Under the pieces are notes generated by a model. The model saw only the letters and a list, made by a program, of their open reading frames with translations, made no database searches and was not told the origin of the DNA. DNA of 64,000 nucleotides from Amnibacterium kyonggiense. Its GTDB lineage: Bacteria > Actinomycetota > Actinomycetes > Actinomycetales > Microbacteriaceae. Below are positions 43,404 to 49,555 of the stretch, piece after piece. The stretch is taken from the NCBI RefSeq assembly GCF_004364555.1, contig NZ_SOAM01000004.1, forward strand, positions 186,001-250,000. Reading direction: 5' to 3'. How positions within the stretch are numbered: position 1 is the first letter of the stretch; every line of letters starts with the position of its first letter. The position numbers were made by a program, and so were the translations under genes.

Positions 43404-44426
43404 TCAGGCGGGCGCGGGCTGCGGGCGCGGGAGCTCGAGCCAGAGGTCGACCTCCTCGCCCTCGTCCTCCAGGCCGAGGGCGGCCGCGGTCTCGTCGATC
43501 GTGATGGCCACGACCGTCACGGACTTGTCGGAGCCCTTCGGAGCGGTCCGGATAATGATGCGGTCGGAGTGGACGTGCGCGAGCTTCGCCGCGACCTCGT
43601 CGAGGATCGGCTCCATCAGGCCGGGGTCGACGTCGTCCAGGCCGCCGTCGTCGAGCACCTGCACGAACGCGCCGCGCCGGCGGTGCGCGATGACCTGATC
43701 CCGGAGGGCCTCGTTCAGGAGGCGCCGACCGCGGATCTCGTCCCGGATCGTCTGCTCGAGCACGCGGCACTCGGCGCGCGCGGCGTCGTCGAGGTCGCCG
43801 TCGGTCTCCGCGATGTGGAGCAGCATCGGCAGCGCGACGCGGCTCGTCTGCGTGAGCCGCACCTGCCGCTCGAAGTGGTGCGCGTCCTGCGCGGCCTGCC
43901 ACTCGACGGCCTCCCGCTCGGAGCGGGCGAACTGCTGGATGTCGCGCATCGCGTGCGAGAGCGAGCGGACGCCGAAGTACGCGGCCGCGACCCAGAGCGC
44001 CATCGGCGCCGCACCCACCGCGACGACGCCCGCGGGACCGGCCCAGACGAGCGTCTGCGCGACGACCAGGCCGACGCCGATCCACGCGTGCGCGGGCCGC
44101 CGCCGGAGCATCGTGAGCACGAGCAGGCAGCCGGCGGCGCCGATGTACCAGTGCGCGTTCCCCTGGACGCCGGGACCGGACATGCTGCTCGCGCAGAGCA
44201 GGGCCATGGCGAACGAGGTGCCCGCGTTCAGCCCGGACACGAGCGGGGACATCGCGGACCTGCGGCCCAGCAGCGTCAGGACGAACGCGACGGCGAAGAG
44301 CGCGAGCGCGATGACGACGCGCTCGGGGTGCAGGGACGAGGGCAGCGAGAGGACGCCTGCGCAGATCGTGCACGCCGCGACGACGCTCGCGAGGAGCGCG
44401 ATCAGCGGGCGGGGCATGGGGATCAC
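43404..44426 (-). CDS. Membrane kinase-like protein, signalling cassette 1
   Basis: 340 aa from GTG 44426 (GTGA overlap with the kinase stop). Four to five transmembrane helices, then a helical segment with a very conserved stretch CRVLEQTIRDEIRGRRLLN, and a C-terminal beta-rich domain (DRIIIRTAPKGSDKSV...VDLWLELPRP) placed like a kinase ATPase domain but without N- or G-box motifs. It has a paralogue in cassette 2 (46479) sharing the central block almost unchanged. Probably a non-catalytic partner that senses or tunes the kinase. Family name not known to me. Confidence 0.75.
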   Translation of the reverse strand: MIPMPRPLIALLASVVAACTICAGVLSLPSSLHPERVVIALALFAVAFVLTLLGRRSAMSPLVSGLNAGTSFAMALLCASSMSGPGVQGNAHWYIGAAGCLLVLTMLRRRPAHAWIGVGLVVAQTLVWAGPAGVVAVGAAPMALWVAAAYFGVRSLSHAMRDIQQFARSEREAVEWQAAQDAHHFERQVRLTQTSRVALPMLLHIAETDGDLDDAARAECRVLEQTIRDEIRGRRLLNEALRDQVIAHRRRGAFVQVLDDGGLDDVDPGLMEPILDEVAAKLAHVHSDRIIIRTAPKGSDKSVTVVAITIDETAAALGLEDEGEEVDLWLELPRPQPAPA

Positions 44427-45679
44427 GCCAGCACCGCCTCGCCGTCGGCGGGCGCCTGCGCGGGCGCGGAGGCACCGGCGGGCCATGACAGCACGAAGGT
44501 GGTCCCCTCCCCCAGCGCGGTCCGGAGGTCGACGGCGCCGCTCACGCGGCTCATGCGCTCGATGATCGAGACGCGCAGGCCGAGTCGCTCGGAAGCCACC
44601 TTCGCGGGGTCGAAGCCGCGCCCCTCGTCCTCGACGTGGACGCACACCGCGCCCTGACCGGTCCCCTTGACGAGCACGGAGCGCCGCACCTCGGGCCCAC
44701 CGGCGTGCTTCACGCTGTTCGTCATCGCCTGCACCGCCGCGGACACGAGGGCGTCGGCGACGTTCTCGGGCACGACGTCGGCGTCGACGTCCTGCGTCGA
44801 GAAGGTGAACGCGTCGCCGATCGCCCCGGACTCCTCCCGGATCCGGTCGAGCAGATCGCCGAGCGGGACCTTCGGGCCGACGGAGGACGCGACCGTCGCG
44901 CGGGAGAGCACGCCCATCGTGTGCTTCGCCATCCGCGCCGCGAGCCGCTGCGCCTCGGGCGTGTGCGCGCCGGCCGCGGACAGGAACGTGGTGAGGACGG
45001 AGTCGTGCACGAGGGCGTCGGTGCGGACGCGCTCGCTCTCCGTCGCCTCGTCGATCTGCGCGTCGGCGTAGCGGCTGAGCGCCGCCCCCTGGGCGGAGTC
45101 GACCTGCTTCGCGGCCCGGCGGACGGCGACGACGATGAGCAGCAGGCTGATCCCCACTTCGAACACCGCGGCACCGTCGAGCAGCGCCGACCCGAGCGTC
45201 GCCGCCCCGCCCGAGGCGGTCAGGCGGAGGCCGACGGTCGAGACGGAGACGAGGAGCACGTACACCGCCGCGACCGCCCAGCGGGACGCCACGACGACGA
45301 GCGCGCACGGCACGCCGGCGAGGGCGAAGAGCCACGGCTTCGTGTCGCCGACGTAGGTGTGGCCGATCGTGGCGGGCCAGAGCGCGAGCGCGCCGAAGTA
45401 CACGAGCCCGACGCCGCCGAACACGGCGCGCGTCCACTGGTGGAGCAGCGCAGCGAGCGCGGCGACGACGATCGAGCCGTAGACGGCGACCGCGAGCATG
45501 AGCGTCAGCCCCGGACGGAGGTCCGGCCAGTCCGCGACGAGCGCCGGGATCGTCGTCGCCGCGAACAGCAGGCCGAAGAGGCTGGCCATGCCCGCCAGCA
45601 GCATCTCGATGCGCCGCGAGCCGATCGGCGCGAGCCCCATGCGGGCCGCGAGGTCGCGGCCGCGGCCGTCAGTCGTCAT
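44423..45679 (-). CDS. Sensor histidine kinase, signalling cassette 1
   Basis: 418 aa. About six N-terminal helices without a large outside sensor domain, then a dimerisation segment with RVRTDALVHDSVLTTFL (phospho-acceptor His) and an intact HATPase domain: N-box AMTNSVKHAGG, G1-box VEDEGRGFDP and GEGTTFVLSW. It resembles NarL-partner kinases of actinobacteria. ATG 45679 overlaps the response-regulator stop by 11 bp; the next gene starts within its own stop, so regulator, kinase and partner are one operon. Confidence 0.9.
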   Translation of the reverse strand: MTTDGRGRDLAARMGLAPIGSRRIEMLLAGMASLFGLLFAATTIPALVADWPDLRPGLTLMLAVAVYGSIVVAALAALLHQWTRAVFGGVGLVYFGALALWPATIGHTYVGDTKPWLFALAGVPCALVVVASRWAVAAVYVLLVSVSTVGLRLTASGGAATLGSALLDGAAVFEVGISLLLIVVAVRRAAKQVDSAQGAALSRYADAQIDEATESERVRTDALVHDSVLTTFLSAAGAHTPEAQRLAARMAKHTMGVLSRATVASSVGPKVPLGDLLDRIREESGAIGDAFTFSTQDVDADVVPENVADALVSAAVQAMTNSVKHAGGPEVRRSVLVKGTGQGAVCVHVEDEGRGFDPAKVASERLGLRVSIIERMSRVSGAVDLRTALGEGTTFVLSWPAGASAPAQAPADGEAVLA

Positions 45680-46361
45680 GGAGGGAGGCGTCGGGGTCGA
45701 GGCCCGGCAGGATGCCGTCCTCGACCGCGCGCCGGAGCAGGTCGACCTTGGTCGGCGCGGGACGACCGACCTCGACGTACTTGACCCGGATCCGGTCGAG
45801 GTACTCGCGGACCGTCGACGGGGCGATGCCGAGCTGCTCGGCGACCATCCGCAGGGGCAGCCCCGACGCGTAGAGGTTGAGGACGTCGCGCTCACGCCGG
45901 CCGAGCTGCGCCTTCGCGAAGTCGGTGTCCGCGTCGATGGCGGTCGCCCACTCGAGGTTGTTCAGCACCGCACCGGACGCAACCGTGCGGATCGCCGCCA
46001 TCACGACCGCGGTGGCGGCGGACTTCGGGATGACCCCGGCCGCACCCGCGGCGAGCGCCTCACGCACGCCGGCCGCGCGGTCGGCGATCGAGTGGATGAG
46101 CACCCCGGCGCCGGTCGCCTGGCACGCCTTCACGTTGTCGGTGATGGAGACGCCGTCGCCGAGCGACAGGTCGAGCACGACGACGTCGATCTCACGGCCG
46201 CCCAGGCGGGACAGGAGGTCGGCGACGTTCGCCCCCTCCTCCACGAACTGGTACCCCTCCCGCATGCACGCCGCGAGGAGACCGAGGCGGACCGACTCGT
46301 GATCGTCGACGACCGCGACGCGGACGACATCGGTGGCACTCTCAGCCTGCGCGATCGACAC
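45669..46361 (-). CDS. NarL/LuxR-type response regulator, signalling cassette 1
   Basis: 230 aa from GTG 46361. Receiver domain: VVDDHESVR (acidic pocket), VVVLDLSLGDG (phospho-acceptor Asp), LIHSIAD (switch Ser) and GVIPKSA (Lys). C-terminal LuxR-type helix-turn-helix: LGRRERDVLNLYASG and LGIAPSTVREYLDRIRV. A 635-nt part of this gene (45688-46322) is identical to 48736-49370 in the second cassette, so both regulators should bind the same DNA sites. Downstream of the cassette 2 membrane gene across 117 bp, which may hold its own promoter. Confidence 0.93.
   Translation of the reverse strand: MSIAQAESATDVVRVAVVDDHESVRLGLLAACMREGYQFVEEGANVADLLSRLGGREIDVVVLDLSLGDGVSITDNVKACQATGAGVLIHSIADRAAGVREALAAGAAGVIPKSAATAVVMAAIRTVASGAVLNNLEWATAIDADTDFAKAQLGRRERDVLNLYASGLPLRMVAEQLGIAPSTVREYLDRIRVKYVEVGRPAPTKVDLLRRAVEDGILPGLDPDASLHDD
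45688..46322. repeat. 635-nt perfect direct repeat, unit 1 (within response-regulator gene)
   Basis: Identical base for base to 48736-49370, offset 3048, with no indels. The identity ends abruptly: two mismatches just beyond the left end (45686-45687) and clustered differences beyond 46322. The flanking kinase genes are much less alike, so the tract looks homogenised by gene conversion or recently copied. Confidence 0.9.
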
Positions 46362-46478
46362 GACCGGGCTCCTCTCCGTCAGCGACCCGTCCCGGGCGGG
46401 ACGGCGCGAGTGTATGTGCGGTGGCGCGGACCGAAGCGGCGCGCACGCCGGGGTCCCCGACCCCCAGAACGGGGTGGC

Positions 46479-47495
46479 TCACGCGAGCACCGGCCGCTCG
46501 AGCTCGAGCCACAGGTCGACCTGCTCCTCGTCGTCGTCGACACCGAGGGCGGCCGCGACCGGGTCGGTCGACATCGCGACGACGGTCACAGCCGTGTCGG
46601 AGTCGCGCGGCGCCGTCCGGATGATGATGCGGTCGGACGAGAGTCCCTCCAGGGCCGCCGCGATCTGCGCGAGCATCGGCTCGAGCACCGCCGCGGGGAT
46701 GTCGTCGATGCCGCCGTCGTCGTTGACCTGCACGAGCGCGCCGCGTCGGCGGTGCGCGACGACCTGCTCGCGCACCGCGTCGTTGAGCAGGCGGCGTCCG
46801 CGGATCTCGTCGCGGATCGTCTGCTCCAGCACGCGGCACTCGAAGCGGTCGGCGTCCGTGAGGCCGTCCTTCGCGGCCGCGATGCGGTGGAGCATCGACG
46901 ACGCGAGCCGGGCCGTGGTCGCGAGGCGCACCTGGCGCTCCGCGTGGTACGCGTCCTGAGCGGCCTCCCACTCGAGCGCCTCCCGCTCCGCCTCGGAGAA
47001 GGAGGAGAGGTGGTGCTCGGTGCGGGCGACGGCCCACCCGCCGGCGGCCATGACCGCGATGATCAGGGTCGCGGCGACGACGCCGAACCCGTTCAGCGCG
47101 TCGAATCCGCCCCACGCGTACGTGTGGACGAGCAGGCCGCCCATGAGGATCCAGGCCGCGCTCGCGCGGCGACGCCACAGGAGGACGACGACGAGGCAGG
47201 CGACGCCGCTCACGTACCATGCGCCGCTGCTGTAGCTGTCGTGCACGGGGTCGAGTCCGACGCTGCCGAGCACCGGGAGCAGGAGCCCGGAGGCGACGAT
47301 CACGATCGTCGCCGGCAGCGAGGCGCGCCCGATCCGGACGATGGAGACCCCGAACGCGAGCCCGAAGAAGCCGAGCGCGATGAGGTTCGTGAGCGGCGAG
47401 CGGGCGGTCGCGATCCAGATGACCGCGAACGCGGCGGTGTAGGCCGCGATGGCGGAGGCGAGGCCCGCGGAGAACCAGCGGGGGACGACGATCAC
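46479..47495 (-). CDS. Membrane kinase-like protein, signalling cassette 2
   Basis: 338 aa from GTG 47495, overlapping the kinase 2 stop. Same plan as the cassette 1 protein: about five helices, the block CRVLEQTIRDEIRGRRLLN, AHRRRGALVQVNDDGGIDD, then a beta-rich end (SDRIIIRTAPRDSDTAV, VDLWLELERP). No ATP-binding boxes. The conserved central block against a diverged membrane part suggests a shared interaction with a kinase or regulator and different inputs. It is followed by a 117-bp gap before cassette 1. Confidence 0.75.
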   Translation of the reverse strand: MIVVPRWFSAGLASAIAAYTAAFAVIWIATARSPLTNLIALGFFGLAFGVSIVRIGRASLPATIVIVASGLLLPVLGSVGLDPVHDSYSSGAWYVSGVACLVVVLLWRRRASAAWILMGGLLVHTYAWGGFDALNGFGVVAATLIIAVMAAGGWAVARTEHHLSSFSEAEREALEWEAAQDAYHAERQVRLATTARLASSMLHRIAAAKDGLTDADRFECRVLEQTIRDEIRGRRLLNDAVREQVVAHRRRGALVQVNDDGGIDDIPAAVLEPMLAQIAAALEGLSSDRIIIRTAPRDSDTAVTVVAMSTDPVAAALGVDDDEEQVDLWLELERPVLA

Positions 47496-48727
47496 GCCGA
47501 CACCTCCGCGCGCTCGGGGCGGATCGCGGTGCCGGAGACGACGACGGAGCCCCAGCTGAGCACGACCGCGGTGCCGCCCGCGCTCCCCGCGCGGACGTCG
47601 GCGCGGCCGTCGACGCTGCGCATGAGCTCGGCGGCGTCGCGGAGGAGCGCCGCGCGCTCGTGCCCCGCTTCGGCGGGGTCGAACGCCGCGCCGTCGTCCT
47701 CGAGGACGATGCGGATGCCGTCCGGGCCGAGCTCGCTCATCCGGATCGTGCGGGACGTCGCCTCGTCCGTGTGCAGCGAACCGGCCGTGACCGCGAGCAG
47801 GAGCGCGTCGACGAGCGCCTCCCCCGCCTCGACGGGGAGCACGAGGTCGTGGAGGCTGCCGAGGTCCTGGACGTCCCACCCGGGCAGCACGCCCGCGAAC
47901 CGGTCGGCGGCGTCGCCGAGGACCTTGCCGAACGGCACCGCCGGTCCGGTGTCGCCGGCGCGGCTCACGTGCGCGAGGACGCGGAGGGCGTTCGCCGCCA
48001 TGCGGCGGGCGAGCTCCTCCGCCTCCGGGTCGCGGGCGGCGGCGGCCGCGAGGAAGGTCGTGAGCACGGAGTCGTGCACGAGGGCGTCGGTGCGGACGCG
48101 CTCGTGCTCCGTCGCGTCGTCGAGCCGGGAGCGGCCGTAGCCCGCGAGCGCCGTCTGCTGGGCCAGGTCGGCGCGCTCGACGCCGCGGCGGACGGCGGCG
48201 ATGAGGATGACGAGGACCGTCGACACGGCGATGCCGAAGAGGCCGTTCGCGACGGCGTCGGCGATCCCGAGCCCGCCGCGGAGGACGAGGACCGTCGCGA
48301 TGGCGGCCGAGAGGAGCATCGCGGCCCAGATCGGGGCGGCCGCCCGGCGGAACGCGACGGCGAGGTAGGCCGCGACGACCGGGAGGAGCGCGATGAACCA
48401 CGGCATCGGCGCGTCCGGGACGGGACCGCTGATCGAGAACGGCCAGACGGCGGCGGCCGCGCAGAACAGGATGGAGGCGCCGAGGAACAGGCTCCGCGCG
48501 CGCGACGGCACGAGCCCCGCGACGGTGCCGAGCAGCACCGATCCGGCGACGAGCGCCACGGCGGCGCCGCCGACGGGGCCGGCCATGGTCGGCCAGTCCG
48601 CGACGAGGCCGTCGAGGGTCTGGAGCGCGTAGAGCAGCCCGAACGCCGCGACGATGACGCCGAGGTACTTCTGGAACCGCAGAGCGCCCACGCGGTGGGC
48701 CGACACCCCGCGGAGGTCAGTCGTCAT
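47492..48727 (-). CDS. Sensor kinase homologue with degenerate ATPase domain, signalling cassette 2
   Basis: 411 aa. Membrane half with about six helices, then the same phospho-acceptor segment as kinase 1, RVRTDALVHDSVLTTFL. The ATPase domain is altered: where kinase 1 has NSVKHA (N-box) this one has TAGSLH, and DEGRGFDP is DDGAAFDP. The glycine run near the end (AGGTAVVLSW) remains. Loss of the N-box Asn, which coordinates magnesium-ATP, predicts a pseudokinase. It could still accept phosphoryl groups or act as a phosphatase or in heterodimers with kinase 1. ATG overlaps the regulator stop by 11 bp. Confidence 0.85.
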   Translation of the reverse strand: MTTDLRGVSAHRVGALRFQKYLGVIVAAFGLLYALQTLDGLVADWPTMAGPVGGAAVALVAGSVLLGTVAGLVPSRARSLFLGASILFCAAAAVWPFSISGPVPDAPMPWFIALLPVVAAYLAVAFRRAAAPIWAAMLLSAAIATVLVLRGGLGIADAVANGLFGIAVSTVLVILIAAVRRGVERADLAQQTALAGYGRSRLDDATEHERVRTDALVHDSVLTTFLAAAAARDPEAEELARRMAANALRVLAHVSRAGDTGPAVPFGKVLGDAADRFAGVLPGWDVQDLGSLHDLVLPVEAGEALVDALLLAVTAGSLHTDEATSRTIRMSELGPDGIRIVLEDDGAAFDPAEAGHERAALLRDAAELMRSVDGRADVRAGSAGGTAVVLSWGSVVVSGTAIRPERAEVSA

Positions 48728-49412
48728 GGAGGGGCGCGTCGGGGTCGAGGCCCGGCAGGATGCCGTCCTCGACCGCGCGCCGGAGCAGGTCGACCTTGGT
48801 CGGCGCGGGACGACCGACCTCGACGTACTTGACCCGGATCCGGTCGAGGTACTCGCGGACCGTCGACGGGGCGATGCCGAGCTGCTCGGCGACCATCCGC
48901 AGGGGCAGCCCCGACGCGTAGAGGTTGAGGACGTCGCGCTCACGCCGGCCGAGCTGCGCCTTCGCGAAGTCGGTGTCCGCGTCGATGGCGGTCGCCCACT
49001 CGAGGTTGTTCAGCACCGCACCGGACGCAACCGTGCGGATCGCCGCCATCACGACCGCGGTGGCGGCGGACTTCGGGATGACCCCGGCCGCACCCGCGGC
49101 GAGCGCCTCACGCACGCCGGCCGCGCGGTCGGCGATCGAGTGGATGAGCACCCCGGCGCCGGTCGCCTGGCACGCCTTCACGTTGTCGGTGATGGAGACG
49201 CCGTCGCCGAGCGACAGGTCGAGCACGACGACGTCGATCTCACGGCCGCCCAGGCGGGACAGGAGGTCGGCGACGTTCGCCCCCTCCTCCACGAACTGGT
49301 ACCCCTCCCGCATGCACGCCGCGAGGAGACCGAGGCGGACCGACTCGTGATCGTCGACGACCGCGACGCGCACCACATCGGTGGTGCTCTCGACTGCCTG
49401 CGCGATGGACAC
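48717..49412 (-). CDS. NarL/LuxR-type response regulator, signalling cassette 2
   Basis: 231 aa from GTG 49412. Same receiver and helix-turn-helix motifs as the cassette 1 regulator; the two proteins differ only in about eight residues at the extreme N-terminus (AQAVESTTDVV versus AQAESATDVV) and one near the C-terminus (APLHDD versus ASLHDD). First gene of the six-gene block; its promoter should lie in 49413-49500. Because the DNA-binding halves are identical, this pair can integrate signals from two different kinases on one regulon. Confidence 0.93.
   Translation of the reverse strand: MSIAQAVESTTDVVRVAVVDDHESVRLGLLAACMREGYQFVEEGANVADLLSRLGGREIDVVVLDLSLGDGVSITDNVKACQATGAGVLIHSIADRAAGVREALAAGAAGVIPKSAATAVVMAAIRTVASGAVLNNLEWATAIDADTDFAKAQLGRRERDVLNLYASGLPLRMVAEQLGIAPSTVREYLDRIRVKYVEVGRPAPTKVDLLRRAVEDGILPGLDPDAPLHDD
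48736..49370. repeat. 635-nt perfect direct repeat, unit 2 (within response-regulator gene)
   Basis: Partner of 45688-46322. Identity includes all third codon positions, whereas the kinases beside each copy are clearly diverged. Confidence 0.9.
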
Positions 49413-49555
49413 GGTGGATGCTCCTGGGATCTCGGATCGGTCCATCCACGGTAGGAGCGGCACCCGCCCCGCGTCCCGCCCCTGATCGGGGCTGTGTGGT
49501 CCCCAGTTGTGGTGCCTGCGGAATCCGCACGACGGGCCGGCCGCCCCTCCCCGCC

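Follow-up and report, generated by a model that had tools for sequence, protein, structure and literature searches.

Two copies of a three-gene signaling cassette stand in tandem on the minus strand of a 64,000-nucleotide stretch of Amnibacterium kyonggiense DNA (contig NZ_SOAM01000004.1, positions 186,001 to 250,000), hereafter called the window; the genome it comes from, of 3.7 Mb, is designated G000. Each cassette encodes a response regulator (RR), a histidine kinase (HK) and a third protein (TH), in that order, and the upstream copy is called A and the second copy B. With modest confidence, we lean toward reading the cassettes as three-protein units in which two HK–TH complexes share one regulator and the contributions of TH and HK-A are noncatalytic. 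All six open frames have the coordinates and the order proposed in the initial annotation of this DNA, and the RR/HK and HK/TH frames overlap in both cassettes, as had also been claimed there. The features of the tandem are the following.

48717..49412, minus strand: RR-A, response regulator with a receiver and a LuxR/NarL-type helix-turn-helix (HTH) domain (Pfam); receiver residues D, D, D, S and K present
47492..48727, minus strand: HK-A, membrane histidine kinase with the His kept (LVHDSVLTTFL) and the N-box Asn and G2 box lost
48074..48076, minus strand: phosphoacceptor His codon of HK-A (residue 218), coordinate derived by hand from the start codon
47771..47794, minus strand: stretch of HK-A equivalent to the N box, with Ala for Asn, likewise in two orthologues; coordinate by hand
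46479..47495, minus strand: TH-A, kinase-like membrane protein without H box or ATP boxes
46782..46838, minus strand: conserved block CRVLEQTIRDEIRGRRLLN in TH-A, coordinate by hand
45669..46361, minus strand: RR-B, response regulator almost identical to RR-A
44423..45679, minus strand: HK-B, histidine kinase with H, N and G boxes intact
43404..44426, minus strand: TH-B, the TH copy of cassette B (modeled with AlphaFold2, mean pLDDT 81)
43713..43769, minus strand: conserved block CRVLEQTIRDEIRGRRLLN in TH-B, coordinate by hand
48736..49370, minus strand: copy A of the presumed gene-conversion tract (635 bases, all matching copy B)
45688..46322, minus strand: presumed gene-conversion tract, copy B

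Both regulators match the Pfam families Response_reg and GerE (receiver plus LuxR HTH). HK-B matches HATPase_c with an E-value of 3.5e-9, and HK-A has no Pfam match up to E 1. The two kinases are 37% identical and the two third proteins 47%; the block ECRVLEQTIRDEIRGRRLLN, singled out earlier as conserved, is indeed the same in TH-A and TH-B.

The association between TH and a histidine kinase extends well beyond the window. A two-row profile detected TH in 59 of the 85 genera of Microbacteriaceae (221 of 299 genomes), and the unit is therefore not peculiar to the window. A 22-row profile found TH in 84 of 396 genomes at the level of the order, the family counted in, and a broader profile in 55 of 296 genomes of the class; phylum-wide, 7 of 246 genomes match at E 1e-10, all 7 within the same class. 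The loci read were picked from the listed TH matches, about one per genus within the family, and since all were selected for holding TH, they test whether TH keeps company with HK and not the converse. HK adjoins TH or is fused to it for all 107 TH genes whose surroundings were read (65 + 20 + 22), which range from the window's family out to other orders of the class. This count agrees with the proposal that TH is a noncatalytic membrane protein tied to HK, and in no locus read did the genome search return TH without such a kinase or as a member of an unrelated known family.

In the family and the window's own genus, 62 stretches (one from the window and 61 loci) contain 65 TH genes with HK beside every one and RR adjoining 61; two of the four loci without RR are contig ends (L076, L077), and the other two (L080, L082) have unrelated genes upstream. 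The HK and TH frames overlap by 4 nt in 63 of the 65, and a start for HK is available before the stop of RR in 54 of 61 RR–HK pairs. Receiver residues D, D, D and K are found in all 61 regulators, as is S or T. The accC gene on one side and accD on the other, the arrangement of the window, flank 36 of the 40 loci L088–L127; in the remaining four, one side only is occupied in this way. HK accompanies all 20 TH genes, and RR 19 of them, at 20 more loci, namely L156 and 19 loci spread over 11 other families of the order; HK and TH form a single open frame in L151 and L155 (2 of the 19). In other orders, 20 loci yielded 22 TH genes, all with an HK match beside or before them; the match comes in pieces of 27–47 bits in L183 and L185, and the count leaves out three weak TH matches that fall on HK itself (L181, L182, L184). 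A frame shared by HK and TH occurs in 9 of these 20 loci (L176–L183, L185). By eye, RR is near HK–TH in 12 of the 20 and follows TH, instead of preceding HK, in L177, L180, L184 and L186.

TH is an accessory protein of HK–RR operons, with its membrane nature taken from predicted helices, and its adjacency and fusion to HK suggest that it may regulate its partner kinase. If so, proteins annotated as hypothetical or ATP-binding would gain a signaling role across many families of a bacterial order. Two more, distant RR–HK–TH triads lie outside the window (G000:C4 65850-68706 and 137123-139859; L156 and L004), and with them the window's contig carries four. A Pseudarthrobacter plasmid (NZ_CP047900.1, L208) carries a row of three genes, for a LuxR-type regulator, for an ATP-binding protein and for a relative of TH that shows 29% identity and is annotated as hypothetical.

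The claim that TH has no ATP-binding boxes was confirmed by eye in 65 aligned TH rows, which lack the H box as well as the N and G boxes. A His before a shared ER pair is common in the TH family and missing from distant rows; when TH-B and HK are aligned on the shared ER of helix 1, reading of the alignments places a Ser of TH-B at the position of the HK His. Pfam gave an HATPase match in none of 22 TH members, and their matches, the best at E 0.0046, are scattered over 11 unrelated families. TH-A has no match in Pfam or NCBIfam; TH-B has one in each, at E 0.01 (below its cut-off) and E 0.1, respectively. Assignment of TH to a transporter or other known family was rejected, as these scattered weak Pfam and NCBIfam matches and three sequence matches in the PDB (E at least 0.022) were all that was obtained.

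Similarity to HK emerges from profiles and models. BLASTP of TH-A against HK-B gave E 5.5 and comparison of close TH profiles with HK 8%, the link being given by broader profiles alone. In the full-length comparison of these broader profiles, TH and HK match with a probability of 97% over 297 columns (E 1.2e-11; E-values of profile comparisons are pairwise and not database values), and larger TH and HK sets (114 and 127 rows) again gave 97% at full length (E 1.2e-10). The transmembrane half of TH alone matches HK with 80% (E 1.4e-5), and some TH frames at loci of other orders score 16–26 bits in the HK model. The AlphaFold2 model of TH-B (mean pLDDT 81, pTM 0.51) contains membrane helices, a long helix plus hairpin and a small alpha/beta domain of a strand, a helix and three strands; the order of membrane helices, hairpin and alpha/beta domain is common to the TH and HK models. 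Structures of DesK make up 7 of the top 11 Foldseek matches of TH, although none is significant. We consider TH a probable HK paralogue that has lost its catalytic function.

The tandem occurs in three of seven Amnibacterium genomes (G000, G001 and G002); G003 has both cassette types on separate contigs, G004 and G006 have the main cassette only, and G005 (84% complete) has neither. While HK-B has the phosphoacceptor His and the N and G boxes, HK-A retains the His without the N-box Asn and G2 box. In all three tandem genomes, HK-A carries Ala for the N-box Asn, the GLG motif is gone and the His box is intact. Among 22 HKs, 19 match HATPase_c at E 0.01 in Pfam. In single scans, the three HK-A fell below the cut-offs (P0002 without a match, the others at E 0.12 and 0.045) and the two HK-B tried passed, which indicates that the three misses are the HK-A. 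Given this loss of ATP-site residues, the two inputs proposed earlier are not equal. Values of dN/dS between orthologues, from our own Nei–Gojobori script, are 0.32–0.45 for HK-A and 0.29–0.43 for HK-B; the similar ranges indicate that HK-A is under constraint like HK-B, and TH-A is likewise constrained. Comparison of HK-A with HK-B within each of the three genomes shows 28, 28 and 25 shared residues among the 36 around the His. RetS and DivL structures are among the listed top 50 fold matches of HK-A; those of TH do not include them.

The regulators of the tandem behave differently from the other two genes. Past codon 15, the DNA of RR-A and RR-B is 99.7% identical in the window and 100% identical in G002, with longest identical runs of 635 and 686 bases, respectively; the G001 pair is 89% identical. 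Differing silent sites in the RR pair amount to 1.7% in the window (0.017), 0% in G002 (0.000) and 30% in G001, and those between orthologues to 0.36–0.41 for HK and 0.33–0.43 for TH. In the RR tree, the copies of G000 pair with each other, as do the identical copies of G002, and those of G001 are unplaced; monophyly of the three RR-A is rejected (p-AU 3.7e-5, with the identical G002 rows left free). In the HK and TH trees, which were quick and used no mixture model, A groups with A and B with B (support of 100 for the HK-A clade and 99 for the TH-A clade). Gene conversion between the regulators fits their identity and the HK and TH trees best. Both G002 copies (from 5984 and from 9038 in L069) are unusual in composition, the GC content of the first being 64% against 72% for the locus, and their silent divergence from G000 lies clearly above that of the neighboring HK and TH, as if a foreign allele had replaced both. 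The record that carries this Amnibacterium locus (JABBOB010000005.1; L020/L069) is filed as an Acidobacteria metagenome-assembled genome and is probably misnamed.

A related arrangement was observed in the sister genus Frondihabitans, where each of six genomes has one RR 73%–75% identical to RR-A, the next best being at most 47%. The close HKs per genome, counted by eye with a cut at about 200 bits and with the HKs next to the second-best RR set aside, number 10 in G248, 5 in G010, 4–5 in G204, 4 in G286, 3 in G092 and 2 in G154. Six of 20 extra Frondihabitans HKs with surroundings read have TH, and a close-type RR is beside none; L080 and L082 included, there are eight HK–TH pairs without RR. 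In the tree, these pairs lie on the side of HK-A and the lone HKs on that of Frondihabitans. Both the presumed conversion of the RR genes and the single close RR beside several HKs in Frondihabitans genomes support the idea that two inputs may converge on one regulator in the window. The Frondihabitans plasmid NZ_CP014514.1 (L206, L207, L209, L210) encodes two HKs of the family, annotated as ATP-binding protein, with no RR or TH beside them.

From these sequences, the following mechanism can be proposed. HK and TH, probably paralogous membrane proteins and presumably made in similar numbers from overlapping frames, would join in one membrane complex, where TH, as an HK that lost its His and ATP site, would govern HK allosterically and HK would phosphorylate the NarL-type regulator. 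Two of these complexes would share one regulator in the window, with the RR genes kept identical by gene conversion. The His helix of HK-A, by which such kinases dock the regulator, is close to that of HK-B. Since HK-A is not expected to bind ATP in the usual way, HK-A and TH-A most likely join HK-B and supply a second input in this way, which could work through trans-phosphorylation of the HK-A His by HK-B or through tuning of HK-B by contact. The tandem may serve as a natural experiment in how specificity is preserved when several sensors converge on one regulator and in how a kinase remains useful once its catalysis is lost.

Several observations weigh against this proposal. The cytosolic half of TH compares poorly with HK (8%, E 0.004, the reversed control giving E 0.18), also in the larger sets (31%, E 5e-4, with eight column-shuffled controls at E of at least 0.27). 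A reversed full-length HK control still matched at 15% (E 0.0018), which indicates that part of the TH/HK similarity is composition, and Foldseek returned no match to TH below E 0.001, the best being DesK at E 0.055. For the TH tree, the program flagged a joining of long branches (L070 with six Frondihabitans rows). In G001, the G1 box of HK-A still reads DDGRGFDP, and HATPase_c_2 reaches a sub-threshold E of 6.8e-4 at best among the HK-A of G001 and G002. The G001 regulators differ at 11% of DNA positions and 30% of silent sites, so conversion there would be older or partial. The A-type cassette of G003, on its other contig, has intact ATP boxes and an RR of its own that shares 75% identity with that of the window; none of the six neighbors was found in the 12 kb read there. 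Fourteen Frondihabitans HKs of the family are without TH, which is therefore not required by every such kinase. Different, weakly matching receiver-bearing frames lie ∼0.2–3.5 kb from four lone HKs (L188, L196, L198, L202), that of L198 being 0.2 kb upstream on the same strand, and a weak RR match lies 3 kb from one HK–TH pair (L204); these nearby matches make the regulator of these HKs less sure.

Other explanations can be set against the same evidence. HK-A and TH-A may instead act as an antagonist, not phosphorylated by HK-B but docking the shared regulator through the kept DHp helix and draining phosphate from it or sequestering it. The loss of ATP-site residues beside a retained His helix would suit this role, and RetS is described as inhibiting GacS as a heterodimer (PMC12189002) and DivL as binding a regulator without kinase or phosphatase activity (PMC4211667). 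Yet HK-A keeps its His, superfluous for a pure sink or scaffold. A DxxxQ phosphatase motif belongs to this kinase type, and it is absent from both HKs, which read HDSVLTT; we regard antagonism as unlikely, although it is the strongest of these competitors. Somewhat less probable still is that TH has no kinase ancestry and is a membrane ligand sensor inhibiting HK in the manner of LiaF. The weak comparison of its cytosolic half with HK would be explained, and LiaFSR offers a precedent in a set of RR, HK and negative-regulator accessory protein (PMC3543457); the full-length profile similarity, the membrane helices, hairpin and alpha/beta domain present in both TH and HK models, and DesK as the best, though not significant, fold match argue for descent from a kinase.

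Decay of cassette A as a mere duplicate, with identical regulators a neutral by-product of nearness, seems improbable to us. In its favor, HK-A has lost ATP-site residues, conversion requires similarity and nearness alone, and the RRs do differ in G003, whose cassettes are separated. Nevertheless, the loss is common to three species, the frames are intact, and HK-A is as constrained as HK-B, with TH-A likewise. Insertion of an HK–TH pair beside the main cassette, doubling the RR separately in each genome, has a source in the RR-less A-type pairs of Frondihabitans; it is the most doubtful of the explanations, as the same order and the same A and B clades in three genomes make separate insertions unlikely and RR-A and RR-B of G001 differ at 30% of silent sites.

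The proposal of HK–TH complexes sharing one regulator can be widened, tentatively and with less confidence than the proposal itself, to HK–TH sensors acting as plug-ins on a constant hub regulator, widespread in Actinomycetes. A pseudo-HK third subunit would be co-translated with a true kinase or fused to it, sensors would be added to and removed from the regulator, and the latter would stay constant by gene conversion (Amnibacterium) or by singleness (Frondihabitans). At the extreme, HK-A and TH-A, both catalytically dead, would signal only via the neighbor kinase.

Wiring of many sensors onto one regulator is known, and so are three-component systems and pseudo-HKs. In the LiaFSR system of Bacillus, LiaF is a membrane protein and LiaR is of the NarL type. 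As in the triad, an accessory protein works there together with an RR and an HK, but LiaF, unlike TH, is not called kinase-like in that account (PMC3543457). TH has no match to a LiaF-type family in Pfam or NCBIfam, the comparison being with family models and not with a LiaF sequence itself, and is fused to HK in other lineages. In the split kinase HK1/HK2/TcrA of Mycobacterium tuberculosis, the kinase functions are divided among three proteins. A split histidine kinase was rejected for the triad, since TH has neither the His box nor the ATP site and HK-B is complete with both.

The pseudo-HKs DivL and RetS are described as HK relatives without full kinase activity that act on another HK (PMC4211667, PMC12189002, PMC9491836). 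TH differs in standing beside its HK in the loci read and in missing the phosphoacceptor, a distinction drawn from descriptions and not from sequence comparison. A variant of ChrS in Corynebacterium glutamicum provides a parallel to HK-A, in that cross-talk between paralogues lets an HK without its CA domain boost signaling via another HK, and the native HKs of these paralogous systems form heterodimers; the variant is laboratory-made, its His is dispensable and the truncated form gives no heterodimer, whereas HK-A is natural and found in three species (PMC9491836). Gene conversion between a regulator gene and a nearby copy is reported for ntrX of Ehrlichia ruminantium, where a partial duplicate disables the gene, while here whole regulators are kept alike (PMC9937504). 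The initial annotation knew of no description of such a unit. That stands for the triad itself, as far as titles and abstract openings of the open-access literature searched show, and not for its elements, as LiaFSR, DivL and the ChrS variant show. The same search returned no description of a kinase that has a pseudo-kinase subunit encoded next to it in many families, or of a regulator pair kept alike while the kinases diverge; subscription journals lie mostly outside this search, and absence from it carries little weight.

Upstream of the regulators, a short recurring pattern was noted.

46462..46473, minus strand: CCCGTTCTGGGG, candidate operator upstream of RR-B, between TH-A and RR-B; unproven
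49479..49490, minus strand: CCCGATCAGGGG, one-mismatch form of the pattern upstream of RR-A; unproven

The pattern CCCGWWCTGGGG is put forward as a lead only to an operator. A copy with at most one mismatch precedes 9 of 10 Amnibacterium RRs (0.09 of 10 on average in shuffles), 6 of 8 Frondihabitans HK–TH pairs (0.10 of 8 on average) and 2 of 14 lone HKs (0.15 on average); some of these sequences had served to define the pattern, so the enrichment is not an independent test. The pattern was found upstream of none of six Frondihabitans RRs and none of 40 other RRs of the family. The whole window holds 4 matches against 1.65 expected, a number reached by 7 of 100 shuffles and not striking. Exact matches in six genomes number 63 and include many inside predicted genes; the backward pattern has 15. 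Of ten chosen downstream proteins, four are without a Pfam match and six have one (RTX repeats, sigma factor, GH18, pilin-like N terminus, fn3/pectinesterase and ParA-like). The pattern also stands upstream of some genes for secreted proteins (sites in L211–L246).

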